IMG/VR virus record: IMGVR_UViG_3300049482_000109
Span: 1 to 21,040 of that record
DNA from: a virus
Direction: 5' to 3' (one strand)
DNA: 21,040 nucleotides
Made by a program: the position numbers and the translations under genes. Of the stretch, positions 1 through 18,830 are shown piece after piece; the first letter of the stretch is position 1; every line of letters begins with the position of its first letter. The notes beneath the pieces are model-generated. The model saw only the letters and a list, made by a program, of their open reading frames with translations. It had not been told where the DNA came from and did no database searches.

Positions 1-587
1 CTTGCTATGTGTCTAAATGAAGGAACATTGGTTTGTGCAAGATGTATAACGCTTTTGATAAGCGCCATATCAGCGGCTTCGTCAATAGATTTATCCATTG
101 ATATAGGCTCAACAAGTGTAGCGTTGTTTGCCGGAGTGAAGGTAAGTGCCACTGAGTGTATCTTTGTGCGAGCTAAAAGAGTAGGGTCTGCTAAACCACG
201 AGACAATACCCCACCTTCAACCGAAGCTTTGAGCTTAAGTGGAGTGTCTGCTTTATGTATGTTTCTTAGAATAGCTGCTGCTGCTTTAGCATTCGGATGA
301 TCTTCGTCAGAGTACAGGTAACCAGCACAGTATAAATATGGAGCTTTAATCTTTTCCCAGTAATAGCGATGGCGATCATTTTCACAGTCTTCAGCTTTAA
401 AGATTTTCTTTGCTGTTGTGATACGACCAATAGAGTTAAAGAAACCCTTTCCATGGTTATCATTAAAGCGACCCTTACCGGCAACTAAGTCAGAAATATC
501 AGCGCCTTCAACAGACAGCATTTCGCCTTGTGTGTCTCGTAAGGCACTTCCAGCACACATATCGATTTCAAGAGGTTTCTTAGCCAT
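1..587 (-). CDS. Prohead (capsid maturation) protease, 3' end beyond the window
   Basis: This is probably the protease that digests the scaffold inside the prohead before DNA is packaged, analogous to T4 gp21. The open frame runs from ATG at 587 without a stop to the left edge, giving 195 residues. Two motifs typical of herpes/phage assembly-type serine proteases are visible: a histidine in NDNHGKGFFNSIGRI (His45) and a serine in LKASVEGGVLSR (Ser122), followed by a beta-rich stretch (HSVALTFTPAN, about 144-154). The catalytic assignment is by family analogy. Position supports it: portal, then accessory genes, then protease is the usual head-gene order, so scaffold and major capsid genes would be expected past the left edge. 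There is no clear Shine-Dalgarno site. A TGGTATAAT element ends 8 bases before the ATG, so the message may be leaderless. The family call is confident; the exact start is fairly sure. Confidence 0.85.
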   Translation of the reverse strand, partial: MAKKPLEIDMCAGSALRDTQGEMLSVEGADISDLVAGKGRFNDNHGKGFFNSIGRITTAKKIFKAEDCENDRHRYYWEKIKAPYLYCAGYLYSDEDHPNAKAAAAILRNIHKADTPLKLKASVEGGVLSRGLADPTLLARTKIHSVALTFTPANNATLVEPISMDKSIDEAADMALIKSVIHLAQTNVPSFRHIA

Positions 588-595
588 TAAGGCTG

Positions 596-604
596 ATTAT
601 ACCA
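596..604 (-). promoter_or_regulatory. Extended -10 promoter (TGGTATAAT) before the prohead protease
   Basis: The minus strand reads TGGTATAAT, an extended -10 element with perfect TATAAT. No good -35 is seen 16-18 bases upstream, which is common for extended -10 promoters. The heptamer TTAAGTG occurs twice just upstream (613-619 and 603-609, 10 bases apart). The predicted +1 is near 589, about two bases before the ATG at 587, which would give a leaderless mRNA. This is a sequence match only. Confidence 0.55.
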
Positions 605-625
605 CTTAAATACACTTAATTGTGA

Positions 626-1042
626 TCAGCGGTATATCTTATAGTCGTCGTCTGATGGGTGTTCATTGACTATGCTTTCACCAGCCATAGCTTCTTTAAG
701 ATCCTTAAACTCTTCTGTATCTCTAATTTTATTCAGGGCAAGCTTTTCGGTCTTCTTAACCGTATCTACCGATATACCGTTTAAAGATGCTATCTCGACG
801 TCTGATGGTGGTTTATCGGCAGCGTATTCCTTTATATATTTAAAAAAGCAATAATTAGCCAGTTGATGATTAACGGCCCAAGGACAACCAGGAAGCTTGG
901 ATTCTTCGTCTTCAGTCAGCTCTCGTCCAGCTGTACGAATAGCCTTGAGCCGCATCACTGCTAATGGACAAAAACTATTAGGAAAGCATTCTAGAGCCCT
1001 AGGGCATCTGCTATCCATTGAGTTTTCTTTATCGTCGCTCAC
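626..1042 (-). CDS. Cys/His-rich protein with a sigma-region-4-like helix-turn-helix
   Basis: I do not recognise the family. The 138-residue product has two parts. The N-terminal part holds two copies of a spaced motif: C13-x5-C19-x5-C25 (CPRALECFPNSFC) and C53-x5-H59-x5-C65 (CPWAVNHQLANYC), which suggests a metal or Fe-S site built from a duplicated unit. The C-terminal part (about 79-108, SDVEIASLNGISVDTVKKTE then LALNKIR) resembles the helix-turn-helix of sigma-70 region 4, including the xIxxxExxALxKLR-like ending. A role as a DNA-binding transcription factor is inferred. The start is GTG at 1042, supported by a GAAGGA ribosome site and a GTGA overlap with the preceding gene's stop, so translation is probably coupled. 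It lies directly before the prohead protease and its promoter. A terminase- or packaging-related DNA-binding role is another possibility. Confidence 0.75.
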   Translation of the reverse strand: MSDDKENSMDSRCPRALECFPNSFCPLAVMRLKAIRTAGRELTEDEESKLPGCPWAVNHQLANYCFFKYIKEYAADKPPSDVEIASLNGISVDTVKKTEKLALNKIRDTEEFKDLKEAMAGESIVNEHPSDDDYKIYR

Positions 1043-1635
1043 GCATTTCCTTCAACTGGTGCAGAAGCGGTATCAGCTGTCTGTGGAACTTCTTCTGCTT
1101 TAGGTGGTTGGCGGATAGCGAGAAGCTCGATTTCATGCTCAATACCATTTAACTGAACTATGGCTTTAGCTCCAACTTCACGACCTTCAAAAGCCTTAAT
1201 GAGATCAGGCACGCCGCATTCAGATAGCTTTAACTTAGAACGAAAGATACCTTTGTCAATATCTTCGGTCTTAGAAGTTAAGATGACTGTACTGTCTGCA
1301 TCAACTGTTGTTCCTACAGTAAAACCATCTTTAGCATCTTCTTTATCGGACGCCTCGTTAAAATCTTTTAAACGAAGTTCGTCAGCAATAGCGGCAAGTT
1401 GAGCATTATCAAGACCAGTTAGTCGCTGTACACCAAGAATCTTATATTGAAGCTCATTGATAAGTCCCATAGCAGAACCTAAATCTTGTTGCATGCGCTG
1501 ATTGTTCTGCATGATCTGCTGAGTCATCATCTGACTGATACGAGCAGCCATCTGCATATTTTTCAATTCTACTTCTAGACCTTGAAGACGCTCTTTACGG
1601 GAACTCTGTGGTTGTTGTCTAAAGCCATTTTTCAT
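1039..1635 (-). CDS. Unknown protein with Met/Gln-rich coiled coil; possible prohead core component
   Basis: The 198-residue protein has no family I recognise. Residues about 15-70 are predicted coiled coil, very rich in Met and Gln (for example MMTQQIMQNNQRMQQ). A middle acidic segment (about 88-125) and a beta-strand-like C-terminal domain (about 125-180, KAIVQLNGIEHEIELLAI) follow, then a Pro/Ala-rich tail. The start is well supported: AAGGAG lies 8 bases upstream of the ATG, and the ATG shares its A with the TAA of the kinase gene (TAATG), which implies translational coupling. Being encoded between portal and prohead protease, it could be an internal prohead or scaffold-core protein, since T4 places small core proteins there. 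That is inference from position only. Confidence 0.75.
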   Translation of the reverse strand: MKNGFRQQPQSSRKERLQGLEVELKNMQMAARISQMMTQQIMQNNQRMQQDLGSAMGLINELQYKILGVQRLTGLDNAQLAAIADELRLKDFNEASDKEDAKDGFTVGTTVDADSTVILTSKTEDIDKGIFRSKLKLSECGVPDLIKAFEGREVGAKAIVQLNGIEHEIELLAIRQPPKAEEVPQTADTASAPVEGNA

Positions 1636-2480: not shown

Positions 2481-2637
2481 CAAACAATGATTGAAACGTA
2501 GCGAAAACGTCTAAGACTTGTTTTTCTGAGACTATATCTAGTCTATATAGCAATTTAAGTAACTTTATCACCGAATCTCGGTATTCTTGAGTTACAATTT
2601 GACCAGTATCTGACCTAACAAACAGATCACTCTGCAT
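2476..2637 (-). CDS. Possible 53-residue protein after the portal gene
   Basis: An open frame of 53 residues begins at ATG 2637, overlapping the last 11 bases of the portal gene in another frame, and ends with TAA at 2476-2478. It fills most of the 182-base gap between the portal and kinase genes. The product is helix-like, with an amphipathic segment YRDSVIKLLKLLYRLDIVSE, and matches no family I know. There is no strong Shine-Dalgarno site, so expression would rely on coupling to portal translation. The evidence is the open frame filling the gap and sensible composition; it could be chance. Confidence 0.4.
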   Translation of the reverse strand: MQSDLFVRSDTGQIVTQEYRDSVIKLLKLLYRLDIVSEKQVLDVFATFQSLFV

Positions 2638-4597
2638 CGCCAATACTATTTATTGGATTAGCAGTGACCTTACCGCCTACATTGGTTGCTTTAGAAGCCC
2701 CAAATTCTTTAGCGGTATCACGAAGTGGATTGCCAGACTTAACGGCATCATACGCAGCCTGAGCATGAGCTTGCTCCATCTCCATATTGTGCTTTTCTTC
2801 GTCGCGTGAATGAGCAGCTTCAGCATGTTTATGCTTTTGAGCTTCTATCTGTTGTTTTTGTTGTTCCTGTGTCTGCTGGGCTTCCATTGCTTGAGCCTGC
2901 TGCTCTTTTTGGTCCTTAACATTATCCATCGTAACTAATAGTTGTTGCCATGCAAGGAATGCTTGATCGCCGGGTATATATTGAAGCTCGCGTCTAGATG
3001 CAGCCCCGACATCTCCAAAGAACTTCTCGCGGATTTCTCCACGTGTCATATTCTTTTCAATTAATGCCCAGAAAGCCTGGTTCATCGGAAGATCTGCGAC
3101 CTTCTCGTTGATCTTGTCTTTTTGAGATTGTTGGAGCAAGTCGTTCATAGACTTGTAAACAGTCATCTCAGCTTGCATCTGAGCAATCTCAGTCTGAGGA
3201 GTCTCGTCTGTATAGCCAGTAAATAAGAACTTATATTTATGACCAAATGCCTTATCGATAGCTGGAATAACTTCGCCGTTGATCAGATCTTCTACATACA
3301 TTAGTAAAGGAATAAGACCACGTTCACGAGAATAAGCGATCTTATATTCATTATTAGCTTGCTGCATTGGAGCCTTACCAGTGCCGCTAATAAGATAATC
3401 CAAACCAAGCTCCATGGGGTCAATCTGGAACTGTGCGCAGAGAATTCGCATCAAATGATTGTTGAAATTAATATATTCCATCTCGCGAGCAGATGCTGAC
3501 ATAGGTACCCATTGGACTTCGTCAAGACCAGCAACGATTGGGGTTCTCCATGAATGTTGAGTTCCAGATATAGAGTTATAAAAAGTACGACGAAAGTTAG
3601 CTAATGATTGCTGAGTTACAGTACCCTTTAAATGGAGTACCCCTCTAGCAGCATAACCATGCGTAAAAAAGTTTGAATTATAGTTCTCAACGTTCATATG
3701 ATTAGTGACGTTAATAATGGCAAGCTCTAATGGAGAAAAACAATAACCCTGGGAATCCGCAAAATTCTGGGGATTAAATAGCTTAAAGATCATATCCTCG
3801 TCGCCGAAGGTAGCAAGAGGGCGGTTATCGTAGGAGACTTGGACGTATTTCAAGTAGTCGTTATCAACTTGATTTGTCTTCTGATCTTTCTTAGGGTCAT
3901 TGTCGCTTTTAGCTTGCAGCAGCGAATTAGGTGTTACACCTGACTCAACTTGTTTGCGCGATAAGTTCTTATTGATCAGGTAAACTGACTCAGCAGGAAG
4001 AGGTCTGAAGCGATGTAATCCACCACTACGAGTCTTAATTTTTTCAACTGCTGTATGACCAAAAGTAAGTGCATCACGACCAATTAACTTTAAAAATTCA
4101 CCAAACAACATCTTATCGTCGCCTGGCGTTTTTTCCTTACGGCCACAGTGATAGATGAAATCTTCGATAGCCGCAATCTCTTTGCGCTCTTCTTCTGTGT
4201 AATGAGAATTGTGGTCTTTTTTAAGGACACGAAACCCAGGTTCTAACTTACGGTGCTCTGGACGAGAAAATCTAAGAAGAGTATCTACACGGCATTGAAT
4301 GATAGCAGAAACCAGCCAATCACGAACTGAGACATCCTTAAGCGTCTTATTAGAAATACGAGTTAACTTGTGTTTAAAGTTAACTTGGGTCCCCATAAGA
4401 TCAAAATATGGATCATCAATGATTGACTTACGACCAATTTGAGTATCAGCATCATGGCCTTCTTCGGGTGAATCTGGCAATGTATCAGCAGTCGCATTCG
4501 GTGTTATGCCGACAGGCGATGAAACTCCGTCAGCCTTAAGCATCTCGTCAATTTCGCCTCTGATGTTCTTTTTAAGCCAGTCATCCCATATTGCCAT
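2627..4597 (-). CDS. Portal protein
   Basis: The 656-residue product fits the dodecameric portal, the ring at one vertex through which DNA enters and leaves the head and on which the prohead assembles. The call rests on size, on the position directly after the large terminase, and on portal-like core features: RDWLVSAIIQCRVDTLLRFS (about 93-112), the FSPLELAIINVTNHMNVENY helix, the THGYAARGVLHLKG strand region, and LMRILCAQFQIDPMELGL, a segment typical of phage portals. The C-terminus (about 560-620) is a long Gln/Glu/His-rich coiled coil. The N-terminal ~60 residues look disordered. The ATG at 4597 lacks a well-spaced ribosome site (AAGG is 12 bases away), and a GGTATAAT element ends 6 bases before it. 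Confidence 0.88.
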   Translation of the reverse strand: MAIWDDWLKKNIRGEIDEMLKADGVSSPVGITPNATADTLPDSPEEGHDADTQIGRKSIIDDPYFDLMGTQVNFKHKLTRISNKTLKDVSVRDWLVSAIIQCRVDTLLRFSRPEHRKLEPGFRVLKKDHNSHYTEEERKEIAAIEDFIYHCGRKEKTPGDDKMLFGEFLKLIGRDALTFGHTAVEKIKTRSGGLHRFRPLPAESVYLINKNLSRKQVESGVTPNSLLQAKSDNDPKKDQKTNQVDNDYLKYVQVSYDNRPLATFGDEDMIFKLFNPQNFADSQGYCFSPLELAIINVTNHMNVENYNSNFFTHGYAARGVLHLKGTVTQQSLANFRRTFYNSISGTQHSWRTPIVAGLDEVQWVPMSASAREMEYINFNNHLMRILCAQFQIDPMELGLDYLISGTGKAPMQQANNEYKIAYSRERGLIPLLMYVEDLINGEVIPAIDKAFGHKYKFLFTGYTDETPQTEIAQMQAEMTVYKSMNDLLQQSQKDKINEKVADLPMNQAFWALIEKNMTRGEIREKFFGDVGAASRRELQYIPGDQAFLAWQQLLVTMDNVKDQKEQQAQAMEAQQTQEQQKQQIEAQKHKHAEAAHSRDEEKHNMEMEQAHAQAAYDAVKSGNPLRDTAKEFGASKATNVGGKVTANPINSIGDAE

Positions 4598-4603
4598 AAT
4601 TAT

Positions 4604-4612
4604 ATTATACCT
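4604..4612 (-). promoter_or_regulatory. -10 promoter element (AGGTATAAT) abutting the portal start
   Basis: AGGTATAAT ends 6 bases before the portal ATG, so the predicted +1 falls on or very near the A of the ATG (4597). A second overlapping TATAAT lies at 4599-4604. It shares the GGTATAAT core with the elements at 596, 7198 and 7987. If active, it makes a leaderless message. Alternatively the AAGG within it could be a distant ribosome site. Confidence 0.45.
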
Positions 4613-4624
4613 TAACTAGGCTCA

Positions 4625-6568
4625 TTAAAAGGACCAGAGAAATCCGCCCTCACCGCCAGAATTGTCGTCGTCACCTGGATCATCTAGATCTGATTTCTTA
4701 CCTATCTTACCCAGCTTAGAAACATCTGGCTGTTCTGACGACATCATGACCCCTTGAGTCATTAGGTGTTCAGCAGGAGTGGGCATGCGGGTATAGTTGC
4801 CAGACTTATCTTGTAAACCATCTGTAGAGTCAAATTCTAGACCCCCACCTAAAACAATGTTAGATTTACCATAAAGTAAGGTCATTGGATATCTAAAAGC
4901 ATCAATCCAATGGTCAAACTCTGAATCTGGGTCGTCAGTGATCATCCCAGCAGCATCCATTTTAAAGTGATACATAGTGAATTCATTTATTAATGGCTGG
5001 CAAGTTTCCCTAGCGATAAATAACTTAGTATCCATAGACCCAGGGATCTTCATGAATTTCTTGATAACTTGGATACCCGTATTGATTTGCCCCTTATCCA
5101 TCACGTTCGCAACAGGTAGACCAGCTTTTTGCATCTCTTGGATAGCCCCCTGATCTGCTGCATCAGGAACATAGAGTTGGCAGCGGTACTTTGTGTGATA
5201 TTTAGTCTTTATGTGATGAATCCAGCCTGGGGACGATATATATGTCATACCGTCACACTTAACAACATATACGTTGTCTCGCTTATCTATAAAGAAATAA
5301 ACAACCGTATTTGGAGCTGAGAATCCCCAGTCAATACCTGCATAGCAAGGAAGTTGTAGTTCATGGCATTTTTTGACAAAAATATCATGAGTACATTCGC
5401 CTGGAAATTCCTTACCAGTTAATGTGAACCACATTTGATTCCACTCACGGACATGAATCTTGTCGTCGAACTCACGAAATATAATGCCTTCTACAGAAGG
5501 TTTTAAGTTCATGAGCTGCGCTAATGCCCAATCTGCACCTTCAGAGCGAACTTTTTGAATTAGTTCGTCTAAAGTTTTTAACATTGGAGAAGTTGAAGTC
5601 TGTTTCTTCGCATCTGATAAACAGATAGCAAAAAGAGGGCACTTGCCACATTTGTCTAATCCAGCATACTGAACGTACTCTTTCTGCTTATTGCGATCCT
5701 TCTTTGCAAAGTCTTCTTCGGTAAGGGTCTCCATCTTGTCCTGGTTAACCCAGTACTGAGTAGGAATAGTGCCGGAACGAGCATCAGAACAACGCTCGGT
5801 GAATTCAAAAGCAGTCCAACGGCGGACAGCGCGAGACTTATCCGGAGCAGATTCCATCTCTTCGATCTTCTGGTTCATCAAACCGTAGCGAGACTTACGA
5901 GTTGAGATACCGACACGAAGAGCCTTACGACCACCCTTAGAATCTAACATACCGGATATTTCTTTAAAGGCCTTAACACCTTCACCGGAAACCGTATCAA
6001 TCTCATCAACAACTACTAGTGGAACGTGAGGTCCATTACACGCCTTGAGAGTACAAGGTAGCACTTCAAGAGTCACCTTATCATGTCCAACATTAAATAT
6101 AGACTTAGACATATTAGCCTTCTCAAGAATTCGTTGGTCTTCTGGAATATCTGAGGGCATTACAATAGGTTTTAGTTTGCGGTTATAGAGGAAGTTCTTC
6201 TGATAGGCATAGCAACGTTCAGCCTGGTTCTGAATAGCTCCAACGTGGACAACGTCACGCTGATCATGAAGCAGAATCATGAGTTCAGCAATAGCCATGC
6301 CTAAAGTCTTTCCAGATCCTCGACCAGCAACATATAGAAGATCGATAATATTATCTGGGTTTATACGAAGTACGCAAATACGATACACTTCCCAAATTAC
6401 GTCAAGGGGATTAGTATCAGAATACCTAGAAACTGTTATATCTGGCAATTCTAAACCTAAATGATATTTGATCCAGTTCTTGAGCTCTTGACGAGTCTTG
6501 CAAGGCGTGAGAAGAAGTTTCTTCTGCTGGTCAAATGTTAATTTCTTACTAGCCGGTTTAACTGCCAT
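4625..6568 (-). CDS. terL: Terminase large subunit (ATPase-nuclease)
   Basis: This 647-residue motor packages DNA into the prohead and cuts the concatemer. The ATPase domain has Walker A AGRGSGKT (81-88), Walker B VVVDEID (185-191) and a coupling motif GISTR (220-224). The RNase H-like nuclease domain has acidic residues at Asp413 (AGIDWG), Asp469 (PDAADQ) and Asp552/Asp556 (FDHWIDAFRY). Between the domains is a Cys cluster, Cys260 plus C307-x2-C310-x5-C316 (KCGKCPLFAIC), that could bind a metal and is not part of the textbook T4 gp17 core. The C-terminal tail is acidic and Gly-rich. The gene overlaps the preceding likely small-subunit gene by 11 bases, the usual terS-terL arrangement, and the portal gene follows. 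Confidence 0.95.
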   Translation of the reverse strand: MAVKPASKKLTFDQQKKLLLTPCKTRQELKNWIKYHLGLELPDITVSRYSDTNPLDVIWEVYRICVLRINPDNIIDLLYVAGRGSGKTLGMAIAELMILLHDQRDVVHVGAIQNQAERCYAYQKNFLYNRKLKPIVMPSDIPEDQRILEKANMSKSIFNVGHDKVTLEVLPCTLKACNGPHVPLVVVDEIDTVSGEGVKAFKEISGMLDSKGGRKALRVGISTRKSRYGLMNQKIEEMESAPDKSRAVRRWTAFEFTERCSDARSGTIPTQYWVNQDKMETLTEEDFAKKDRNKQKEYVQYAGLDKCGKCPLFAICLSDAKKQTSTSPMLKTLDELIQKVRSEGADWALAQLMNLKPSVEGIIFREFDDKIHVREWNQMWFTLTGKEFPGECTHDIFVKKCHELQLPCYAGIDWGFSAPNTVVYFFIDKRDNVYVVKCDGMTYISSPGWIHHIKTKYHTKYRCQLYVPDAADQGAIQEMQKAGLPVANVMDKGQINTGIQVIKKFMKIPGSMDTKLFIARETCQPLINEFTMYHFKMDAAGMITDDPDSEFDHWIDAFRYPMTLLYGKSNIVLGGGLEFDSTDGLQDKSGNYTRMPTPAEHLMTQGVMMSSEQPDVSKLGKIGKKSDLDDPGDDDNSGGEGGFLWSF

Positions 6569-7178
6569 TGTTTGCTAATTGCCCTAGTAATGTTGCGGTC
6601 GAAGCTTCTTCAGCTTCTTCTTGATGCTCAACTTTTTTAGGTATCGGAGTCAAGGCATCAAACATAGGTGATGCTTTCTTATCTTTACCTGCAGGAGTTG
6701 CACCAGCTACAATCTTATAAAGAGTCTCAGCAACATCTTTATATTCTTTAATGTTAGTTACACGAAGCTGTGGCTTTGGATTATTAATGGGATCTTGACA
6801 ATATTTAACCATGACTTCCAGATGTTCAGCATTAGCAACTGCCATCATCGCAGTAAGGAAATCAACTTGTTCAAGAACTGATTTAACAACTTTAGCCTTA
6901 ACTCTATCCTGAAGAGTATGCATCATGCGGTCACGATCGTAACTCCAACCACGTAGAGCAGCAGTAAGAGCAATTTGTCCCATAGAGTATTGAGAAAACT
7001 GCTGGGCGATCTTTGAAAGAGATTCTCCTAAAAGATACAACTCAAAAAGTTTAGCTGCTTCTAGTTCTTTTAGAGCACCTGCAGTCTTATGTTTACGTAG
7101 GTATTTTTCAGCCAGCTTAGTTTCTTCTTCACTAAGTCCGTATTTTTCTTGCTGTGTTAGACGTCTCTTTAATGCCAT
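6558..7178 (-). CDS. Probable terminase small subunit
   Basis: This 206-residue protein is probably the DNA-recognition subunit of the packaging terminase. A helix-turn-helix-like segment lies at about 45-78 (LFELYLLGESLSKIAQQFSQ then YSMGQIALTAALRGW), followed by long helices (about 85-125) that could oligomerise and a charged C-terminal tail, a layout typical of small terminases. It sits immediately upstream of terL with an 11-base overlap. I chose ATG 7178 because GGAG lies 8 bases upstream; an ATG at 7211 would lack a site and precede the predicted transcription start. The gene also overlaps the 3' end of the preceding HTH gene by 47 bases. The family assignment rests on context and architecture, since small terminases are poorly conserved. 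Confidence 0.65.
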   Translation of the reverse strand: MALKRRLTQQEKYGLSEEETKLAEKYLRKHKTAGALKELEAAKLFELYLLGESLSKIAQQFSQYSMGQIALTAALRGWSYDRDRMMHTLQDRVKAKVVKSVLEQVDFLTAMMAVANAEHLEVMVKYCQDPINNPKPQLRVTNIKEYKDVAETLYKIVAGATPAGKDKKASPMFDALTPIPKKVEHQEEAEEASTATLLGQLANNGS

Positions 7179-7551
7179 ATAGTTCGCTCCATACACCATT
7201 ATACCTAACAACTTGTATCACTTGCCTAATGCGTACCTCACTAATACCTTTATAGATCGATATCTGATCTATGGTACAGCCAAGGGCTAGAAGAGCAACT
7301 ATAGATTGCTCTATTTGACTAAAACGACTAAGAAGTTCATGAAATTTTTCAGAGGGAGGGTTTTTAGTAATTTGCCGAAGAAGAGTCTGAATTTCAGATT
7401 CTATATATAATTCTTTATTTATCTGAGCAAAATAAGACGCAAGAGAAGACTCAGCATTACCACTTAAGTAATAAGCCCAAAGCTCTTGTTGCTGATCTTC
7501 ATCATTAGTCAGGTCGCTTATCAGCTGACTGACTTGATCCGTCGTTCTCAC
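7132..7551 (-). CDS. Helix-turn-helix protein upstream of the terminase genes
   Basis: The 139-residue product has a C-terminal helix-turn-helix-like segment at about 84-113 (IVALLALGCTIDQISIYKGI then SEVRIRQVI), similar in shape to sigma-region-4 or LuxR-type DNA-binding helices. The N-terminal ~80 residues are helical and acidic with no known motif. I chose GTG at 7551 because GGAGAT lies just upstream at ideal spacing; the frame stays open to an ATG at 7602 with no such site. With that start it overlaps the preceding gene by 47 bases and the next gene by 47 bases. It may be a transcription regulator, or a DNA-recognition protein working with the terminase; the sequence does not decide. Confidence 0.65.
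   Translation of the reverse strand: MRTTDQVSQLISDLTNDEDQQQELWAYYLSGNAESSLASYFAQINKELYIESEIQTLLRQITKNPPSEKFHELLSRFSQIEQSIVALLALGCTIDQISIYKGISEVRIRQVIQVVRYNGVWSELYGIKETSNTARKIRT
7198..7206 (-). promoter_or_regulatory. -10 promoter element (AGGTATAAT) before terS-terL
   Basis: AGGTATAAT lies inside the 3' part of the preceding gene. Predicted +1 is near 7191, directly before the GGAG ribosome site (7187-7190) of the gene starting at 7178. No convincing -35 is seen. The shared GGTATAAT form supports a family of promoters in this phage. Confidence 0.5.
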
Positions 7552-7954
7552 TTTTATCTCCGATGTTATCAACATACACATCGAAGTCAGCGACAGTAAC
7601 ATTAGCGACCCACTTAGGTCCGCAATAGTCCGTCACAAACTTATTAAGGATTTGAGGAAGATCAAGAGCACCATTCTTTTTAAGAAAGCGCTTGAACTTC
7701 CACATTCCATATAATGATGTGGCGGTGGATAATTTTTTGTAGATTTCTATTTTATTGAGCAATTGCTTGTCAACATAAATAGTATATTCAACTACCTTCT
7801 TCTCGGGATGAATATCTAACTCTACGGCCTGCACGTCGGTATGAACAATGGAACCACAGAAAAATAGCTGATTCTTAACTGAGTCTGTCAACAGACCGTT
7901 ATTAAGAAGCCATCTTTCTTGATCTAAGAACTGTTCTAGTTCCTTCTTTTCCAT
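7505..7954 (-). CDS. Unknown 149-residue protein
   Basis: No family is recognised. The protein is a soluble alpha/beta mix: a charged N-terminal helix (MEKKELEQFLDQERWLL), a strand-rich centre (about 30-70, VVEYTIYVDKQLL), a basic stretch (WKFKRFLKKNG) and a disordered acidic/Ser-rich tail (DKSENDGSSQSADKRPD). The ATG at 7954 has a strong AGGAG site 5 bases upstream. It is the first gene after a TGGTATAAT promoter and so may open the packaging operon. Its 3' end overlaps the next gene by 47 bases. Confidence 0.75.
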   Translation of the reverse strand: MEKKELEQFLDQERWLLNNGLLTDSVKNQLFFCGSIVHTDVQAVELDIHPEKKVVEYTIYVDKQLLNKIEIYKKLSTATSLYGMWKFKRFLKKNGALDLPQILNKFVTDYCGPKWVANVTVADFDVYVDNIGDKSENDGSSQSADKRPD

Positions 7955-7964
7955 TTACACTCCT

Positions 7965-7999
7965 AGGTGGCATCCACCTGATAACTATTATACCAGGTG
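7965..7999 (-). promoter_or_regulatory. Promoter with symmetric repeats: possible operator and 5'-end hairpin
   Basis: An extended -10 element TGGTATAAT (7987-7995) lies within an inverted repeat, CACCTG (7994-7999 on the minus strand) and CAGGTG (7975-7980), separated by 13 bases and centred on the -10. A third arm, CCACCT (7965-7970), pairs with AGGTGG (7974-7979) around a 3-base loop. Predicted +1 is near 7980, so that hairpin would form the very 5' end of the mRNA, just before the AGGAG site. It could be a repressor site, an RNA stabiliser or both. The symmetry is seen; the function is inferred. Confidence 0.5.
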
Positions 8000-8005
8000 A
8001 AAACT

Positions 8006-9040
8006 CTACTCACTTAATTTTGAATCGTTTAGAACAGACTTAGCAACATCAAATAGCTTAGTTTTATCTAAGGATCCGCTATACACTTTAACTATGTAAT
8101 CTGATATGATGGATTCCATCGACTTTGCCTCAATAGCAACGTTACGCTTCTCTTTATCTGTAAAGGTTGTCTTTACTTTTACATCTACGTCTTTCACTGC
8201 ATTTTTATACTCTTTAGATCCAAGATAGCCAATAAGTTCTGCTTTAGGCCCTTCTAGTTCTACTACCCAATGATCTTTGCTTCCCTTTACATCTTGTTCG
8301 ACCATCTGATGGACATGTTCTAACGTCGTTTGCTGAGATACCACGACGTGTAGTCTGCGCCACGATGGAAGCGGAGCTTGATAAAAGGTTTCCCCATACG
8401 TAGTGCTGTCAAAGATGGTGATACCTTTGACTTGATCAACGTCTGATGCAGACTGACTAAACGGAGAACCGACATATAGCACCTCAGGTCCTGATCCTCC
8501 ATTTGGAAGCACCCGCTGTTTAGTGTGAATATGCCCGGATATAATGATTTCGCATCCCTTAATGCTGCTCGGAGCAACCCCGTCATTTGCTCTGATAGCG
8601 CCATAATCTGCTCCTAACATTGTTTGGTGAGCAATACATATAGGAAGAGTATTGCGTGGAAAAGTATCTGGATTGTGCTGATACGGAACGAACGTCATAC
8701 CAAACAACTCTTGGATTTCGTCTACAACATGGAAATCTTTAATTCGGTTCTTGAAAGGCTTCAGAGCATGGTACTGAGCGTCATTGGGTTTGTACATATC
8801 ATGGTTGCCGAGAAGATAGACGTACGGGATACCTAGTTTCAAGACCACATCTACATGGTTCATGAATTCACAAAGAACCTCTGATCGAACGATTGCATGA
8901 GTATCAAACGTGTCCCCGAGATTAACAACGATGTCTGGTTTCACTTCAGTAATAGTTTTGTCAAGCCAAGCCAGGAATTGGGTTGCTAGTTCAAAACGAT
9001 TGATCTTAAGGTGGGGATCTCCAATCAGGAGTATCTTCAT
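8006..9040 (-). CDS. Mre11/SbcD-type recombination nuclease (T4 gp47-like)
   Basis: This 344-residue protein is a calcineurin-like nuclease that, with the Rad50-like ATPase, processes DNA ends for recombination-dependent replication. All phosphoesterase motifs are visible: GDPHL (Asp8, His10), NLGDTFD (Asp43), LGNHDM (Asn79, His80), AHQ (His138) and SGHIHTKQ (His170, His172), then GSPFSQSASD, typical of SbcD/Mre11. The C-terminal ~130 residues would be the capping and partner-binding region. The ATG at 9040 follows the phosphoesterase gene's stop by 4 bases and has only a weak ribosome site (GAGTAG). Unusually, the Rad50 partner lies about 10 kb upstream rather than adjacent. Confidence 0.92.
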   Translation of the reverse strand: MKILLIGDPHLKINRFELATQFLAWLDKTITEVKPDIVVNLGDTFDTHAIVRSEVLCEFMNHVDVVLKLGIPYVYLLGNHDMYKPNDAQYHALKPFKNRIKDFHVVDEIQELFGMTFVPYQHNPDTFPRNTLPICIAHQTMLGADYGAIRANDGVAPSSIKGCEIIISGHIHTKQRVLPNGGSGPEVLYVGSPFSQSASDVDQVKGITIFDSTTYGETFYQAPLPSWRRLHVVVSQQTTLEHVHQMVEQDVKGSKDHWVVELEGPKAELIGYLGSKEYKNAVKDVDVKVKTTFTDKEKRNVAIEAKSMESIISDYIVKVYSGSLDKTKLFDVAKSVLNDSKLSE

Positions 9041-9044
9041 GGAA

Positions 9045-9650
9045 CTACTCTATTGAGTTTTCTACATTGGATCTGCATATAATCTTCTCAATCTCTGTAA
9101 TTGGTACAGGGCGAAAATTCCATTGATCTACGCCCACATTGATCATTCTACCGACGACCTTCCACTTCTCATGAACGTGACCACAGAGCAGCCACCTACC
9201 GTCGTCTTTAGGTCTCCAACGTTCATACTTATCATCGTGGTGGTCACCATCAACGAATTTATAAGGATGATGGCACATCTGGACATTAGCTACTCCAGGA
9301 ATATTTAGTGAGGTTTGCTCGGGGAGAACTGTCCATCCAAGATCTTCATAAGTTTTAATCCATTTAGTTCTGTTCTCAGTATTACGAGACTTCTTGTGAT
9401 AGGAATGACAGAAGTCGTGGTTACCTGGGACTAGGAATTTCTTACCATTTAGTCTAGACGTAAAGGTCTCAACTGGCCTAAAAGACATGCTGAAGTCACC
9501 TAGACAGTACACAGTATCATCTGGACCTACAGTTTCGTTCCAATACTTGACAAGCATCTCGTTCATGGTCTCAACAGAATCAAATGGTCTATTGCAGTAT
9601 TTGATGACATTTGCATGCCAAATGTGAAGGTCCGAAGTGAAGAAGATCAT
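9045..9650 (-). CDS. Calcineurin-like metallophosphoesterase
   Basis: This 201-residue protein is a compact phosphoesterase with a two-metal site: SDLHIWH (Asp7, His9), CLGDFS (Asp52), PGNHD (Asn77, His78), MCHHP (His127/128) and CGHVHEKW (His158, His160). It belongs to the small single-domain group often annotated as phage metallophosphoesterases; the substrate could be a phosphoester, cyclic nucleotide or nucleic acid end. Its ATG overlaps the aldolase-like gene's stop (ATGA), so the two are translationally coupled, and Mre11 follows 4 bases later. It is a separate protein from Mre11: shorter, with a different spacing and no capping domain. A second phosphoesterase so close could be a duplicate or serve another pathway. 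Confidence 0.88.
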   Translation of the reverse strand: MIFFTSDLHIWHANVIKYCNRPFDSVETMNEMLVKYWNETVGPDDTVYCLGDFSMSFRPVETFTSRLNGKKFLVPGNHDFCHSYHKKSRNTENRTKWIKTYEDLGWTVLPEQTSLNIPGVANVQMCHHPYKFVDGDHHDDKYERWRPKDDGRWLLCGHVHEKWKVVGRMINVGVDQWNFRPVPITEIEKIICRSNVENSIE

Positions 9651-10267
9651 GTAGGCTTTACTCCGCTTTTAAGAGCAATCTCACAAATATGGTCCAAACG
9701 TTCTACATGCTCGTAGGCACTCCATGGATCTGGTGCTACTGCACAAACACCGTGGTTAGCCTGTCCTACGATGTCTTTAGTTAGACAATCAATCGGGGCA
9801 GAACTATAAAGATTAGGGCTTCCATCACAGAGGGCGAAGTATGTAGCATTAGCGAGATCTTTAGAAACAGCTGGTAAATTAGGGACATTTGGACCTACCT
9901 TTGTGTAGCGATGAATTTCTGGAAATTGAGCGGCAAGAGCTGGCAGATCCCAGCCTGCATACATAGCGGCTATAACATGAGTTGGATGAACATGTAGAAC
10001 AGCTCTAGTGTTAACTGCGTTCCTTAACAGGAACAAGTGCATGTCAAGTTCACCTGAGGGTTGTATACCTTCAGGGATAACAAGTCCACCATTATCTATC
10101 TTCATCTTGATAACAGATTCAACTTCAATCTTATTTTTTCTAACGCCAGATGGTGTTATATATATAAACTTGCTATCTTTACGACGAAGACTAGCATTAC
10201 CGTCCCTGGTTGTAATCCAGCCTCTATCGTAACATTGCCTCATCACATCGCCGATAGCAGTAATCAT
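9647..10267 (-). CDS. Class II aldolase/adducin-family protein
   Basis: The 206-residue product matches class II aldolases such as L-fuculose-phosphate aldolase, zinc enzymes that cleave or rearrange phosphorylated sugars. Visible features are RDGNASLR (21-28, phosphate-binding GN-S loop), PSGELDMH (70-77, with Glu73 in the catalytic position), LHVHPTH (91-97, zinc ligands His92 and His94) and NHGVCAV (171-177, third zinc ligand His172). The site therefore looks intact. The length is normal for the family. Its ATG overlaps the lipoprotein stop (ATGA), and its own stop overlaps the phosphoesterase ATG (ATGA). Such an enzyme inside a recombination operon is unexpected; it could be metabolic or a host-defence countermeasure. 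The family is sure, the substrate unknown. Related MtnB-type dehydratases are an alternative. Confidence 0.9.
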   Translation of the reverse strand: MITAIGDVMRQCYDRGWITTRDGNASLRRKDSKFIYITPSGVRKNKIEVESVIKMKIDNGGLVIPEGIQPSGELDMHLFLLRNAVNTRAVLHVHPTHVIAAMYAGWDLPALAAQFPEIHRYTKVGPNVPNLPAVSKDLANATYFALCDGSPNLYSSAPIDCLTKDIVGQANHGVCAVAPDPWSAYEHVERLDHICEIALKSGVKPT

Positions 10268-10587
10268 TCGTCTTCACCATGAATGTTAGTGTTGCCGCTT
10301 GCTAGTCCCTCGAAATCGAGGGTTACCCGTTGACCGTTAATGGTACACTTAGCCTTAGCGCGAATAAACCAACCATAACAACTTGAATCACCGAAGTTTA
10401 ATCTACCGCCGCATAAACTGTGATGATGCTCAGTAAGCTCCATCCATGTATCTGCGAGATCTGGTTTATCACACACTTTCACGAGATTATTTTTAATGAA
10501 ATCTGGTGGAGCAACGTTGATTCTTGTAATAACGTCCTTAGTAGAGCATCCAGTTAAAAGAACCAAAGACAGCATTAAGCACTTCAT
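10264..10587 (-). CDS. Small predicted lipoprotein with conserved-looking cysteines
   Basis: The 107-residue product starts with a short hydrophobic signal (MKCLMLSLVLLTGC) ending in a lipobox, LTGC, so Cys14 would be lipidated and the protein anchored in a membrane. The mature part has four more cysteines (39, 59, 70, 81), suggesting disulfides in the periplasm or on the surface, and an HHH run at 54-56. The signal is shorter than usual. The ATG shares its A with the recA stop (TAATG) and has AGGTGA upstream, so it is coupled to the recombinase. Phage lipoproteins often act in superinfection exclusion or as outer spanins, but no partner spanin is seen and the acidic C-terminus is not spanin-like. 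The function is unknown. Confidence 0.75.
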   Translation of the reverse strand: MKCLMLSLVLLTGCSTKDVITRINVAPPDFIKNNLVKVCDKPDLADTWMELTEHHHSLCGGRLNFGDSSCYGWFIRAKAKCTINGQRVTLDFEGLASGNTNIHGEDE

Positions 10588-11696
10588 TAATCACCTAAGT
10601 CTACGGTTACAGCTCCATCTTCAATAACTACGCCAGCAGCATCGAGCTGAACTGCAGCGTCTTTATGCTCATAACAAGAGGTCAGAATCTCATTCTGCAT
10701 CTTAACAGAGCCGAGAACCACATTAAGCATATTAGCTTCTCCCTTGACAGGAGGATTATTAGCAAATTGCCACATCATATTATTCTCTTTACCAGTCTCT
10801 GCGTTCTTAGGGTGGAAAATAACCCCGAGAGATTTACCTAGCTCAAAGATTTCTGTAGCGGTGTCAATGATGCCTTTATCATAATGGTAAGTAAACTGTG
10901 CAGTACGAGCTGGAGCTCCAAGACGGTTTTTCTTAACTTTAACACGCACCTTGTGACCAGTCTGCTGAGCGCCTCCGTGGATATTTTCGCCAGACTCAAC
11001 AACGCCTGCCTTAGTATCTAACTTCACGATTTCAAGCATTAAGTCAGCAGCATGCTTCAACGCACGGCCTTCAGTGATCACATATGGGTTACGAAGAGCC
11101 TTCATTGGATCAATTTCCATAGTAACTTGCTGAATAAAGAAAGTCAATAGCTTATGCTCTGCAATCACTGGGACAACAAGTTTTAGGGTTGAAGGAAGGT
11201 AGCTGGCACCAGTTCCGCCCATCTTCTGATCAGTCGTTTGCTTCATATTCGTTTCTTTAGGATAACGAATTGCTTTAATAGAGTCAATTACAATACCCTT
11301 AATTGGAGCCCCTTCTTGAAGGGCTTCAAGCATCTCTCCACCGATATAGTCAAAGATCTTAAGTGGATCATTGCTCTTACGTACGATAAGACGCTCTGAA
11401 TCTCCACCAACCTTGATAAAGAGAGGGAGGTTAAAAGAGAACTCAGCATCGAACCATATAAAGATTGCTTCACTATCTTTTTTCTGAGCATCAGCAACTG
11501 CCATCATAGCAAGAAGAGATTTACCAGAAGATTCTGGACCATATAAAACAGAGATCTTTCCTGGCTGAAATCCGCCGATAGAAGTAGCCCAGTTAAGTGA
11601 AGGCGAACGAGACGGAACCACTGGCGGGAGATCTTTGTTAAGAGTTGAAGCCACAGTACCGAAATCACTAGTTAATTTAGAAAGCCATTTACTCAT
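10587..11696 (-). CDS. uvsX: RecA/UvsX-like recombinase
   Basis: This 369-residue protein is a strand-exchange ATPase that forms filaments on single-stranded DNA. Walker A GPESSGKS (53-60) is RecA-like. An acidic strand WFDAEFSF (81-88) carries the catalytic glutamate, Walker B GIVIDSI is at 134-140, and the L2-type region is around FFIQQVTMEID (186-196). The C-terminal part (about 225-369) is acidic. The ATG at 11696 has AAGGA upstream with good spacing. It follows the SSB and a putative mediator gene and is coupled to the lipoprotein gene by TAATG. It could be named RecA or UvsX; the gp32/46/47-like context favours the phage name. Confidence 0.92.
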   Translation of the reverse strand: MSKWLSKLTSDFGTVASTLNKDLPPVVPSRSPSLNWATSIGGFQPGKISVLYGPESSGKSLLAMMAVADAQKKDSEAIFIWFDAEFSFNLPLFIKVGGDSERLIVRKSNDPLKIFDYIGGEMLEALQEGAPIKGIVIDSIKAIRYPKETNMKQTTDQKMGGTGASYLPSTLKLVVPVIAEHKLLTFFIQQVTMEIDPMKALRNPYVITEGRALKHAADLMLEIVKLDTKAGVVESGENIHGGAQQTGHKVRVKVKKNRLGAPARTAQFTYHYDKGIIDTATEIFELGKSLGVIFHPKNAETGKENNMMWQFANNPPVKGEANMLNVVLGSVKMQNEILTSCYEHKDAAVQLDAAGVVIEDGAVTVDLGD

Positions 11697-12151: not shown

Positions 12152-13198
12152 TTATCCGTTTAAGATTGCGTCAGCTTCTGCCATGAAATCATCGCCGGAA
12201 GCCAGTGTTGAAACAGGTTTTTTGGCGGTTTGAGCAGTTGTTGTTGGACGAGCTACCTGCGTCTCTACTGGAAGATCATCTTCTGAATCGTCTAAGTTAA
12301 GAGCAATAGTTTTTGTTCCCGTTGAAACAGGCTTACTATTTGTGGTAGTTTGTGCGGCCGTTGTACTCTTAACAGTAGAGTTACCATTAAGATCAATAGC
12401 TGCACTTAGATTAGCTTCTGGCACCATCTGGACAATGCCATCCATATTTGCTGCAAGAATATCTGAAAGCTCGTCAAACGTCTTAATCTGATAAACAGAA
12501 GTAAGATCATAAGCAAGGTTATCGTAATTCTCAATTACAGAATCAGGAAGCGCAGATCTGTCGTCAACAAACGATAGTGCAGCACCGTTTTTAACACGAG
12601 TCTGACATTTATTAACAGCATATTCAGTATCTCGACCTAAACCTTGACGAGTAATATCGAACCAAACCCCAGAATCATCATCAGCACTATTAAGTGATGT
12701 AGGATCTTGATTATAGTCTTGGATATATTGATTCATCTTGGTTTTCATGTCTTTATGAGCAGTACTTTTTAGCTCGAGTAGACCAACTTCGCCCGCTTTA
12801 TCAGCTGCATTATAGATATAAATGGTCTTAGGAGAAAGGTCATTGATTAGTTCTCTTAGATCTTTAAGGCGATCAGTTACTGCATCTTTATCAGCACCAG
12901 ATGCTTTTAATTTAGCTTCAATTTCATCAGCACGCTTTTTTAGTTCATTAACATATTCTGTGACAGGGCAACGCTTTTCGCTTGTCATAGATGAAGCAAA
13001 TGGACGAGCACGGCCAGACTCGGGATCAGTAAGACCCCAGATAATTTGCCATTTGCGGTAAGGGTATCCATTGGAAGCTTCACCGAATGGTGGCAAGATG
13101 CGGAATACGTTGTGTCCATCTTTGACTTTGTGACGTTTCCATTCGCGGCGGGACTTGAGTGAGTCCATATTGAGCTTGATTTTTGAATTATTAGACAT
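12152..13198 (-). CDS. Single-stranded DNA-binding protein (T4 gp32-like)
   Basis: The 348-residue product looks like a phage helix-destabilising protein: a short basic N-terminus, then REWKRHKVKDGHNVFRILPP (18-37) and NGYPYRKWQIIWGL (43-56), which match the OB-fold opening of gp32-type proteins, and an acidic C-terminal tail (NLDDSEDDLP and a final DDFMAEADAILNG) of the kind that contacts replication partners. The gp32 zinc knuckle is not evident: only single cysteines (KRCPV, NKCQ) are present. A Lys/Glu-rich helical insertion lies at about 80-120. I chose ATG 13198 because GGAG lies 9 bases upstream; the ATG at 13213 has none. It has its own promoter (13255-13263), fitting the need for large amounts. 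Confidence 0.82.
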   Translation of the reverse strand: MSNNSKIKLNMDSLKSRREWKRHKVKDGHNVFRILPPFGEASNGYPYRKWQIIWGLTDPESGRARPFASSMTSEKRCPVTEYVNELKKRADEIEAKLKASGADKDAVTDRLKDLRELINDLSPKTIYIYNAADKAGEVGLLELKSTAHKDMKTKMNQYIQDYNQDPTSLNSADDDSGVWFDITRQGLGRDTEYAVNKCQTRVKNGAALSFVDDRSALPDSVIENYDNLAYDLTSVYQIKTFDELSDILAANMDGIVQMVPEANLSAAIDLNGNSTVKSTTAAQTTTNSKPVSTGTKTIALNLDDSEDDLPVETQVARPTTTAQTAKKPVSTLASGDDFMAEADAILNG

Positions 13199-13254
13199 GT
13201 TATTTTTCTCCATAGGTTATTACTGTTCAATTCGGCCATAATTGGCGTACTTCT

Positions 13255-13283: not shown

Positions 13284-13460
13284 TTAATCTCTGTCTTCTT
13301 CAAGTTCTGCATCTTCAATTGCGTGGTCATCTAAGTGATCATCACAGCATGCTTCACATATATATTCTGAGCACCGATGACAAGTATTTTTAGTCCAGTT
13401 CTCACAGAATATACACAGCTTATTAAACTTCTTTAAAAAGTCACTCAGAGCTTTGTTCAT
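13284..13460 (-). CDS. Small zinc-finger protein (58 residues)
   Basis: An open frame from ATG 13460 to TAA 13284 encodes 58 residues with a clear metal-site pattern: C16-x2-C19, C27-x2-C30, C35-x2-C38 (and C39), then H42 and H46. The spacing resembles cross-brace or B-box-type zinc fingers, which bind protein or nucleic acid. The N-terminus is basic (FLKKFNK) and the C-terminus strongly acidic (AELEEDRD). The frame starts 20 bases inside the end of the preceding gene and fills the gap before the SSB promoter. There is no strong Shine-Dalgarno site, so coupling is likely. The regular Cys pairs make chance unlikely; the family name is not certain. Confidence 0.7.
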   Translation of the reverse strand: MNKALSDFLKKFNKLCIFCENWTKNTCHRCSEYICEACCDDHLDDHAIEDAELEEDRD

Positions 13461-13987: not shown

Positions 13988-16900
13988 TTACTCAATGCAT
14001 TCAATCTCTTCGATTTGTAAGTTAACTGGAGTTTTCCAGCCAGCCTTTAAAGTGCCACGAACATAAACAATAGAATTCTTACTCCAACCAAGGGCAGCTT
14101 TGCGATCCCATTCTATGCATTCCATGGTAGCAAAACCATCAGATAAGAAAACTGAAACCTTCTTCCACTCACGACCAGATTTCTTTGATATGCCTCTAGC
14201 AAACTCAGAACTTTCATAAAGAAGAATCATGCCTACTTCACGAGAATAGCCGCCCTTAAGTAGAACTTCAGCATCTTTCACAGATGCTATAACAGGAACA
14301 TCACCCATTTTAAGAGGTAGATTTTTTCTTCCAGTTACAGATAAAGCTGGCCAACGTCCCTTAATAGTCTTAAGGACCTCAGAGTCGGATAAAAGATGCT
14401 TGTTAAAAGCTCTATTAAATTCTTTTTCCATTAAGAAAATACTCAATGGATCATATTTAAATACGTCTTCTTGAAGTTTAATTGTCTTACCACGCAGCAA
14501 TGTATATTGCGCAATAAAGGCTTTGCGGCGCTCGGAATAATCTACAATAGACATATCCATCATGTCATCTGCAGCTCTTCCCTTAATAAGATAGGATATA
14601 CCACCTGAGTTAACTCGAGCATGGTCAATTCTTTTAACAAAGTCCTCTACAGAAGGAAAAGGTCCCTTAGAGCATAACTCTTTGACTACTGCTGGTCCAA
14701 CACCTTTAATAGCAGAAATAGGGGTTACAATCCTTTTAACTCCGTTAATTTCACGAACCTCAAAAAGAGCTGAAGGATACTTTAAAGACGGAGGGTGTAC
14801 TATATCGCCCAACTTAGCAATAGATTTGCGCATCTTATCTTCATCGTCAATAGCTAAATTTAAGATAGAAGCCCACCACTCTAAGGGGTGGTGGTGTTTA
14901 AGATACATGGTTATATATCCTAGTTCAGCATAAGCATGAGAATGGCTTCTATTAAAGCTATATCTACTAAAAGCTTCAACCATTTTACATAGTTGATCAG
15001 CTTCATGTTCAGTCCAATTGCGCTTAATAGCATTTTCTCTTAACTTAGTAAATGTCGATTGAATGACATCTTTTTTCTTTTTAGCAATAGCAGAACGAAT
15101 CATATCTGATTCTTCTCCAGAAAAGTCCCCAATGTCCTTAAGAATAGCCATGATCTGCTCTTGATAAACAGCCACAGAATAGGTTTCACTTAAAATTGGT
15201 TCTAAATCTTTATGTATTAGTTGTGGCTGAAGTTCACCATTTTTGACCTTCATGTACAATTCAGCTGCAGACATCTCTTCTTGATTTAGAAGCTTTCCAT
15301 CTTTAGACATAGTTCCACCGATTTCAATCTGAAAATCTAGTGCTCCAGGTCTAGCTAATGCGGTAAAATCGGCTAAGTGCTTTCTATTAGTCGGACAGAA
15401 TTCTTGCACCATACCCTTAATCAACTCGGTATTAAATTGAAAAGACGAATCTGTGTCTTTATTATAAAAGTCAGTATAAACGCCAGGATCTTCAGGCAGC
15501 CTATAAATGTAGGGAACACCGGTTTCTTCTTCTAGATAGTTGGTGCCGTTAGCTTTTTTAATTAAAGCCACACAGTCAGAGACAGCGGTAAGGGTCTTAA
15601 TTCCAAGAATATCTGCTTTAACAAGGCCGCATTTTTCAACCATACCAGCATCATATTGAGTACAAGTTAGATCGCCTAGTTCTTTATCCTTCATCACCAT
15701 CGTTGGTACACGTTCTGCAGATAAATCTAAGGTTGATATAACAAAAGCAGAAGCATGTCTAGACCAACCTCGAATAGTGCCAATAAGCTTATTAACCATC
15801 TTCTCTACATCTGGGTATGTAGCAAAGAAGTTCGCTAACTGTTTATTTAACTCAACTTGACCAGCATTGTAGTTACCTTCATTATCAGTGTAGCCATATA
15901 AAAAATCATGTTCATCTACACCTTGCTGCGAGTCTTCAATAGAATCACAGAGAGCCTTAATCTCAGCATCGTTACGATTACGGCCATAAAGAGCAAACAT
16001 AGCATCTTTGATTGCATTTTTGGTCTTCATCTTTTGAAAGGTAGCAATCTGAGCAAATCCTAACTTATACTTCTCACGGAGATAGTTCATAATAAGAGAG
16101 CGAGCACGATCACCGATGTCTGCATCGATATCTGGAAAGGATCCAGCACGAATACGGGCATGTGAAAGGAATCGTTCAAAGGGTAGGTTAGCCTTAATAG
16201 GATCTACGTGAATAATTTTGAGGTAGTAACTCAGAAGAGATCCGCCAGCAGAACCACGAGCAATACCTTGTAAAATGCCCTGTGAACGTGCAAATCTACC
16301 AATATCTTCGTATACTAGGAAGTACGGAATGAAATTAAGTGTAGCGTTCTTCATGATAACATCAAGCTCTTGCTTGAATCTAGCAACATAGACCGGATCG
16401 TCTTTCCAGCGTCCGTGCTCGTTGATAAGTCTCATCATGAAGTAATAAGTTTGTAGATTATAATCTGGAGTTTTAGCCGCGATTTCTGCTGGGATGTCAA
16501 CCCTTGGAAGGTGGTAATCATACTTAACAGAGATATCCTTAGCGGCGTCTGAGACTTCATAGGTATTTCTGATCCAAGTTCTAAACTTGTCCTCTGTAAG
16601 CCAGTCACCGAGGTGAACGCGTAGCTTATCGAACATTGTATCGGCTCGCAGCTGGTGATATGACTCGTAAAAATACCATCCATTGCTATTCCCGTTTTTA
16701 AGCAAGCAGTCTTGGATAATTTTGTCTTCGGGCATAATGAAATGGGCATCTGTAACCGGAATGCATTTACCGCCATGCTTATCTACCATGTCCTTTAAAA
16801 AAAGGTTATATCCTTTTTGTTTATTTCCGTCGCAACTACATTCATCAGCTGGAATAGGATCAAAGCTTCCGGTATTTTTATTGAAGTTATGTGTTACATC

Positions 16901-18251: not shown

Positions 18252-18815
18252 CTATTTTAATTGATCTTTCAGTCTCTGGGCTCTTTGTACTATTAATTGT
18301 AAACCGATGGTCTTCTTCTTAGCGGTATACTTAGAAAGCATCTTCCTAAGATCTTTAGAGTTATATTGATTAGATAATATAGTTTTCTCTATGCTGTCAA
18401 GTTCTCCTGTGTACTGCTTTGTAAGTCTAGCAATACGTTCAGCGTTTGTCTTAATATCATGACAAGGATCACAAATTCGCTGAAGATTTGCCTTATCACA
18501 CCATAGACGCTTGAGGAATAAAGTTATGCGGTCCCACATATCAAAGGTAGCTGGAAATCCTTCTGGAGGAACAACAGGGTCGATATGATCGATAGCGATT
18601 TTAGTGCTGCCTACCCATTCATTACAGACTTCACATTGACGACGGACCCAAGGCTTCTTAGCCAAGGTTCCGTCTTTCTTATAGCGCGGAAATTCTTGGC
18701 GAGACTCCTCTTTCTTTTCAACAACAATTGGACTACGTGCAAATAGTCGCCTATTTGTTCCGCGTATCGCCATTTCCTGGTTGAAGGGTGGTTTCTTTTT
18801 CTTAACAGTCGCCAT
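18252..18815 (-). CDS. HNH endonuclease
   Basis: The 187-residue protein contains a zinc-stabilised HNH nuclease fold that cuts DNA with one catalytic metal. Cys61-x2-Cys64 (CEVC) and Cys115-x2-Cys118 (CDPC) form the zinc site. The HNH residues are His77 in DHIDP, Asn110 in KANLQRIC and His119 in PCHDIKTN. The N-terminus is basic (MATVKKKK) and may bind DNA; the C-terminus is a charged helix. I chose ATG 18815 over the TTG just before it. Such proteins occur as free-standing homing endonucleases or as packaging helpers near terminases; here it is distant from terL and not inside an interrupted gene, so its role is open. Confidence 0.88.
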   Translation of the reverse strand: MATVKKKKPPFNQEMAIRGTNRRLFARSPIVVEKKEESRQEFPRYKKDGTLAKKPWVRRQCEVCNEWVGSTKIAIDHIDPVVPPEGFPATFDMWDRITLFLKRLWCDKANLQRICDPCHDIKTNAERIARLTKQYTGELDSIEKTILSNQYNSKDLRKMLSKYTAKKKTIGLQLIVQRAQRLKDQLK

Positions 18816-18830
18816 CAAGCATTATTGTAC

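Follow-up and report, generated by a model that had tools for sequence, protein, structure and literature searches.

Late promoters of phage T4 carry the -10 consensus TATAAATA and lack a -35 element, and both gp55 and gp33 of T4 are middle proteins. The late sigma factor gp34 of phage SPO1 pairs with gp33. WhiB-type (Wbl) Fe-S proteins bind region 4 of sigma-A and have the cluster motif C-xn-C-x2-C-x5-C. T4 gp55 and gp33 together have been described as a split sigma factor acting at -35-less promoters (PMC2988020), and gp33 is described as having no structural relationship with sigma region 4 (PMC7892883). For SPO1, gp28 and gp34 have been cited as indispensable (PMC9429907). A bacterial counterpart is found in Bacillus subtilis, with SigO as sigma region 4 and RsoA as sigma region 2 (PMC10028694). 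One member of the protein family described here is already in databases as A0A6J5KXK5 from an uncultured Caudovirales phage, under the name 'RNA polymerase sigma-70 region 4'; the searchable literature returned no functional work, partner or promoter description for it beyond this database name. Here we analyzed a window of 21,040 nucleotides of viral DNA (IMG/VR record IMGVR_UViG_3300049482_000109) encoding a 138-aa relative with four conserved cysteines and a sigma region-4-like helix-turn-helix (HTH), hereafter the Cys4/sigma-4 protein. We put at about even the chance that this protein supplies region 4 in a two-part phage sigma factor that steers host RNA polymerase to phage genes.

The ORF named in the preliminary description was present at 626..1042 on the minus strand. 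Its GTG start lies inside a GTGA overlap with the stop codon of a 198-aa gene directly upstream (1039..1635, minus strand), an order also seen in relative G001, and an alternative start at M9 would agree with several homologues. The gene is flanked on one side by the portal gene (2627..4597, minus strand; PF04860 1e-15, phrog_12 7.7e-35), a thymidylate-kinase-like gene and the 198-aa gene, and on the other by the head maturation protease gene (3..587, minus strand; phrog_1028 6.4e-11), of which only the start is present before it runs off the window. The order in G001 was terminase, portal, kinase-like protein, 61-aa and 214-aa proteins, Cys4/sigma-4 protein and protease, followed further on by a 482-aa protein, likely the capsid judging by its position, and later by an ORF with sigma region 2. 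The 138-aa gene is real and conserved.

Scans of viral contigs and one scan of prokaryote genomes yielded 168 related loci, many of them overlapping records. Some of the search patterns contained the cysteines, and cysteine-free patterns (DDKENSMD, IKEYAADK, RDTEEFKD and SDDDYKIY) were also used. The closest relative of the window protein, with 86% identity, was found on a 27-kb contig (L002, the same as G028), and records of the group reach about 177 kb. Searches of named phage genomes by tblastn gave no relatives when queried with the window protein or either of two divergent members, and chance-level matches only with a third divergent member. The prokaryote-genome scan found relatives on three contigs in Bacteroidota metagenome bins, one of which (146,658 bases) was equal in length to a phage contig already found. 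These contigs were taken as phage DNA and are too weak a basis for a host call.

Conservation was counted over 84 distinct homologues, themselves chosen by the cysteine pattern, and C13, C25, C53 and C65 were each present in 84/84. The invariant pattern is C13-x11-C25-x27-C53-x11-C65 followed by the HTH, with the 27-residue gap kept in nearly all members. Across the loci, C-x11-C ... C-x11-C-F-F was found in 167 of 168, the sole exception (L041) being cut by a contig end. The first pair (968..1006, minus strand) reads RCPRxLxxxPxx[WFY]C and the second (848..886, minus strand) reads GCPWAVNHQLANYCFF. The preliminary description had read these segments as two ligand triads, C13/C19/C25 and C53/H59/C65, each opening with CPxA, and had staked its reading on conservation of the cysteines and H59. 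The spacing and the CPxA openings were found in the window protein, but position 19 was Cys in only 14/84 homologues and position 59 was His in 71/84 (Ser in nine, Asp in two, Asn in two). This variability rules out C-x5-C-x5-C and C-x5-H-x5-C as ligand triads; since the four outer cysteines were kept throughout, the conserved unit is C-x11-C twice, and a four-cysteine version of the proposal survives. Proline followed the first cysteine of each pair in 82/84 and 76/84 homologues, and CPxA was found in the first motif of only 13/84. The pseudo-repeat C-P-x-x-[LVI]-x6-aromatic-C thus holds in outline, without its middle ligands.

Judged from this conservation, the likeliest role of the four cysteines is to bind a structural Zn2+ or an Fe-S cluster. 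CxxC pairs of the kind seen in zinc ribbons or treble-clef knuckles were absent from the conserved C-x11-C-x27-C-x11-C, which also departs from the Wbl motif in its spacing. The likeness to WhiB lies in a cysteine-cluster domain placed beside sigma region 4 and the β-flap, with both in one chain in the phage protein. Structural matches to WhiB entries either aligned to the sigma-A region-4 chain or were poor. The whole-protein model gave no separate fold match for the N-terminal cysteine domain, and matches of the cysteine region to alpha-amylase inhibitors were dropped as chance-level.

The HTH (residues 80–107; 722..805, minus strand) matched PF04545 (Sigma70_r4) at E ≤ 0.01 in 46/84 members, with a best value of 1.5e-6, compared with a LuxR/GerE family match in 1/84. 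The window protein alone scored E 0.051 and 13.5 bits, under the Pfam cut-off of 24.1 bits, and one relative (G014) passed the curated cut-off. Among profile matches to solved structures, sigma factors predominated, with E values no lower than 0.02, and LuxR-type regulators also appeared. An AlphaFold2 (AF2) model from 84 sequences (pLDDT 73) superseded one from 29 sequences (pLDDT 63). Residues 76–120 superposed on region 4 of sigma-A and sigma-70 with Z up to 4.0 and an rmsd of 2.2 over 44 residues, a weak score by itself, and a Foldseek search of the model against the PDB gave matches at E > 1 only. The best viral structural match (BFVD) was A0A6J5KXK5, with 52% identity over most of the model and E 2.5e-11. 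A85, S91 and K96 are the conserved core residues of the HTH. Sequence and structure together make a sigma region-4-like HTH the best reading. Conservation, family matches and predicted fold back the earlier idea of a small transcription factor with such an HTH and a probable metal site in the head cluster.

Fourteen records of relatives were searched with sigma families, and 33 gene-bearing records with a six-sequence region-2 profile. Relatives encode separate proteins with sigma region 2 but without region 4. Stand-alone proteins of 131, 164 and 145 aa were found in G008, G007 and G006, whereas most relatives carry the domain towards the C-terminus of an acidic ORF of 500–650 aa. PF04542 was over its cut-off in separate proteins of G008 (1.3e-9), G009 (3.4e-6) and G004 (4.7e-6). 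With the six-sequence profile, region 2 was detected in 18/33 gene-bearing records, among them the closest relative's contig and several of the shorter records. It was found in all eleven gene-bearing records of at least 125 kb and in G013 (108 kb), giving 12/14 of those of at least 108 kb; the profile found no match in G011, which is divergent, or G012, both over 100 kb. The region-2 gene usually lies 10–16 kb downstream of the Cys4/sigma-4 gene on the same strand. In the reverse direction, 19 of the 22 contigs fetched by the region-2 profile alone carried the Cys4/sigma-4 gene, one of them truncated, and the other three end at or near its expected position. Because the window ends before the expected position of a region-2 gene, the partner of the window phage is presumed from its relatives.

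Region-2 ORFs (L184:14237-15745, L206:2624-4579 and L216:8714-10474, among others) often open with MPxF[IV]K[TN]xxDExRWxKAK, an N-terminal module of the head cluster to which the sigma domain is joined. The two gut phage records inspected among the matches to the region-2 query were rejected, as their sigma factors are of the ordinary kind that has region 4 on the same polypeptide. G006 (L210:1726-2418) and G008 (L200:14428-15120) also encode a 231-aa sigma-70 in which the stop codon directly follows region 4.1 (REEKxLRxxFG) and the 4.2 HTH is lacking, and a 236-aa ORF of G007 may be a counterpart; the Cys4/sigma-4 protein might supply the absent 4.2 part in these genomes.

This arrangement resembles SigO–RsoA, in which both subunits are needed, in that sigma-4-like and sigma-2-like domains are on separate polypeptides encoded in the same genome. 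It differs in that SigO and RsoA are host rather than phage genes and in that the phage region 2 usually forms part of a large head-cluster protein. We know of no four-cysteine domain in SigO–RsoA, and such a domain on the region-4 half would be unusual. The near-complete co-occurrence follows a clade, may stem from shared ancestry within one phage group, and is no proof of interaction. It nevertheless bears on a rival reading, in which the protein has no connection with the region-2 protein and is a stand-alone DNA-binding activator or repressor with a metal-stabilized N-terminus and a sigma-4/LuxR-type HTH, binding an operator of its own within the head cluster. The fold of sigma-4 HTHs resembles that of LuxR/GerE HTHs, the fold and profile matches included archaeal and LuxR-type regulators, and the small size and conserved lysine-rich recognition helix suit DNA binding. 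Such a regulator leaves the co-occurrence with region 2 unexplained, sits poorly with the 46-to-one excess of Sigma70_r4 over GerE likeness, and has no shared operator-like element around the gene except the -10-like RGTATAAT. We regard it as unlikely; half of a split sigma is more likely than a free-standing activator.

The window contains four promoter-like GGTATAAT sites, each on the coding (minus) strand, against 0.59 expected; one of 100 shuffles reached four. The first (596..603) lies directly after the Cys4/sigma-4 gene, as the preliminary description had reported, and 8 nt before the protease ATG, and so sits in the position of a protease promoter. The second (4604..4611) is exactly 6 nt before the portal ATG, a leaderless spacing. 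The third (7198..7205) is at the start of ORF 6558..7211, which precedes the gene for the terminase large subunit, and the fourth (7987..7994) precedes ORF 7505..7954. All further promoter statistics come from relatives, four of which (G001, G003, G004 and G008) were read piecewise.

RGTATAAT was among the strongest 8-mers of upstream regions in all four genomes. TATAAT stood exactly 6 nt before start codons 11, 19, 17 and 8 times in the four genomes (55 sites pooled), compared with means of 1.3, 1.4, 0.5 and 1.9 when its letters were permuted. The pooled sites had T at -15 in 32, R at -14 in 39 and G at -13 in 43. No -35 element was found at these sites, where a match of at least 4/6 to TTGACA occurred in 8/55 compared with 12.6 in shuffles, and classical TTGACA/TATAAT pairs were not enriched over shuffles. 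Transcription starts six bases after the -10 hexamer, so an mRNA from a TATAAT 6 nt before a start codon should begin at that codon and be leaderless. Sites with longer leaders and Shine-Dalgarno sequences also occurred. Near the 3' end of the Cys4/sigma-4 gene, RGTATAAT was found in 26/87 relatives against a background of 1.7%, and upstream of it in 2/87 only; the gene is therefore probably transcribed from upstream and is not a typical leaderless gene. In G008 (L197–L205), regions upstream of ORFs showed an enrichment of about 8- to 9-fold for a ACCGATTCGAAA-like motif, a second element resembling a promoter or operator.

The GGTATAAT promoters postulated before head genes are thus a genuine genome-wide element in the relatives. 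The suggestion that the Cys4/sigma-4 protein activates them held for the element and lost support for direct recognition. A -10 element is read by sigma region 2 and not by the region-4 HTH, which makes direct reading of GGTATAAT by this protein unlikely and suits a separate region-2 protein. Our leading hypothesis, drawn from these sequence comparisons, is that the Cys4/sigma-4 protein helps transcription from RGTATAAT promoters. The promoter class is not that of T4 late genes: the absence of a -35 is shared, but the phage element is RGTATAAT and often lies 6 nt from the start codon.

For a host housekeeping sigma factor, too, GGTATAAT makes a good extended -10 element. The Cys4/sigma-4 protein could accordingly take the β-flap from host region 4 and leave host region 2 to use an extended -10 (TGGTATAAT) without a -35, with the phage region 2 otherwise employed. 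The resemblance of TGG/TRG-TATAAT to an extended -10 and the absence of -35 boxes fit such remodeling of the host sigma, and T4 gp33 offers a precedent as a protein that clamps the β-flap while structurally unrelated to sigma region 4 (PMC7892883). The base preferences point elsewhere, as the strongest additional base is G at -13 and A is as frequent as G at -14 (20 vs 19), unlike TG at -15/-14. Sigma-type region-2 domains are, moreover, separately encoded in nearly all long relatives. Remodeling of host sigma is therefore considered a minority possibility.

For the two-part phage sigma that we favor, the following mechanism is proposed. The C-terminal HTH (residues about 76–120) would dock on the β-flap of host RNA polymerase, and a putative metal site in the four-cysteine N-terminal half would keep this region-4 subunit in shape. 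The separate region-2 domain would bind the β' clamp and open the -10 element. Both halves together would redirect the polymerase to (T)RG-TATAAT promoters without a -35 box, and at many of these transcription would start at the A of the ATG, giving leaderless mRNA. Use of the host enzyme is probable since no multisubunit RNA polymerase gene was found in the phages. The Cys4/sigma-4 gene lies among the head genes, in contrast to T4, where gp55 and gp33 are middle proteins; the pair may therefore be late-acting or carried over.

Fusion of region 2 to a head-cluster protein may reflect late self-reinforcement, virion packaging or loss of sigma function, and the long acidic protein, encoded in the structural cluster, may belong to the virion and have recruited a sigma fold. 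That the Cys4/sigma-4 protein is itself a head-morphogenesis or virion protein with an inherited HTH and no transcription role is very improbable: its gene does lie between portal and protease and region 2 also occurs in a structural-cluster protein, but sigma 2 and 4 are retained together and the HTH core A85, S91 and K96 is kept, which is hard to explain without RNA polymerase, and in G006–G008 region 2 is a small stand-alone gene distant from the Cys4/sigma-4 gene. In a bolder extension of the two-part sigma, region 4 is a subunit with a cysteine cluster, possibly gated by redox state or metal, and region 2 is part of a head protein, an arrangement that would package promoter specificity in the virion, deliver it with the DNA and drive leaderless mRNAs from -35-less RGTATAAT promoters; this is quite improbable.

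The proposed system shares with T4 gp55/gp33 the division of sigma 2 and sigma 4 jobs between two phage proteins, -10-only promoters and host RNA polymerase, and gp32-like, SbcCD-like and T4-type terminase genes are likewise present in the window. It differs from gp33 as described in that the window protein is sigma-4-like by sequence, and weakly so by model, and has a Cys4 domain. A PF02768 search found no credible beta-type sliding clamp in the phages. SPO1 gp34 is alike as a late sigma function encoded by a large phage. If the two-part sigma reading is true, a widespread environmental phage group reprograms host RNA polymerase with its own two-part sigma factor, in parallel to gp55/gp33 but with a true region-4 relative and an added cysteine domain as the sigma-4 part. 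The promoter TRG-TATAAT-N6-ATG can be tested on genes of these phages, which otherwise lack annotation, and points to a considerable leaderless share in the group's mRNA.

Other genes of the window were also recorded. A class II aldolase/adducin-domain gene (9647..10267, minus strand; PF00596 1.1e-27), an unusual metabolic gene for a phage, lies in the replication cluster. Between it and a RecA gene (10587..11696) is a small lipoprotein gene (10264..10587, minus strand) with Rz1-like LysC resemblance (PF23793 1.9e-4, under the cut-off). Two calcineurin-type phosphoesterases are adjacent at 8006..9040, an SbcD-like nuclease, and 9045..9650 (minus strand), and an SbcC-like ATPase runs from 19428 to the window end. 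A gp32-like SSB (12152..13213) scored just under the cut-off of PF08804. A bacterial-type DNA polymerase III alpha of 1171 aa with a PHP domain is encoded at 13988..17503 (minus strand). Two small proteins had no Pfam match: one of 58 aa (13284..13460, minus strand) with CxxC-type cysteines and His is zinc-finger-like, and one of 188 aa (18252..18818, minus strand) carries CxxC and an 'IDHIDP' HNH-like motif.
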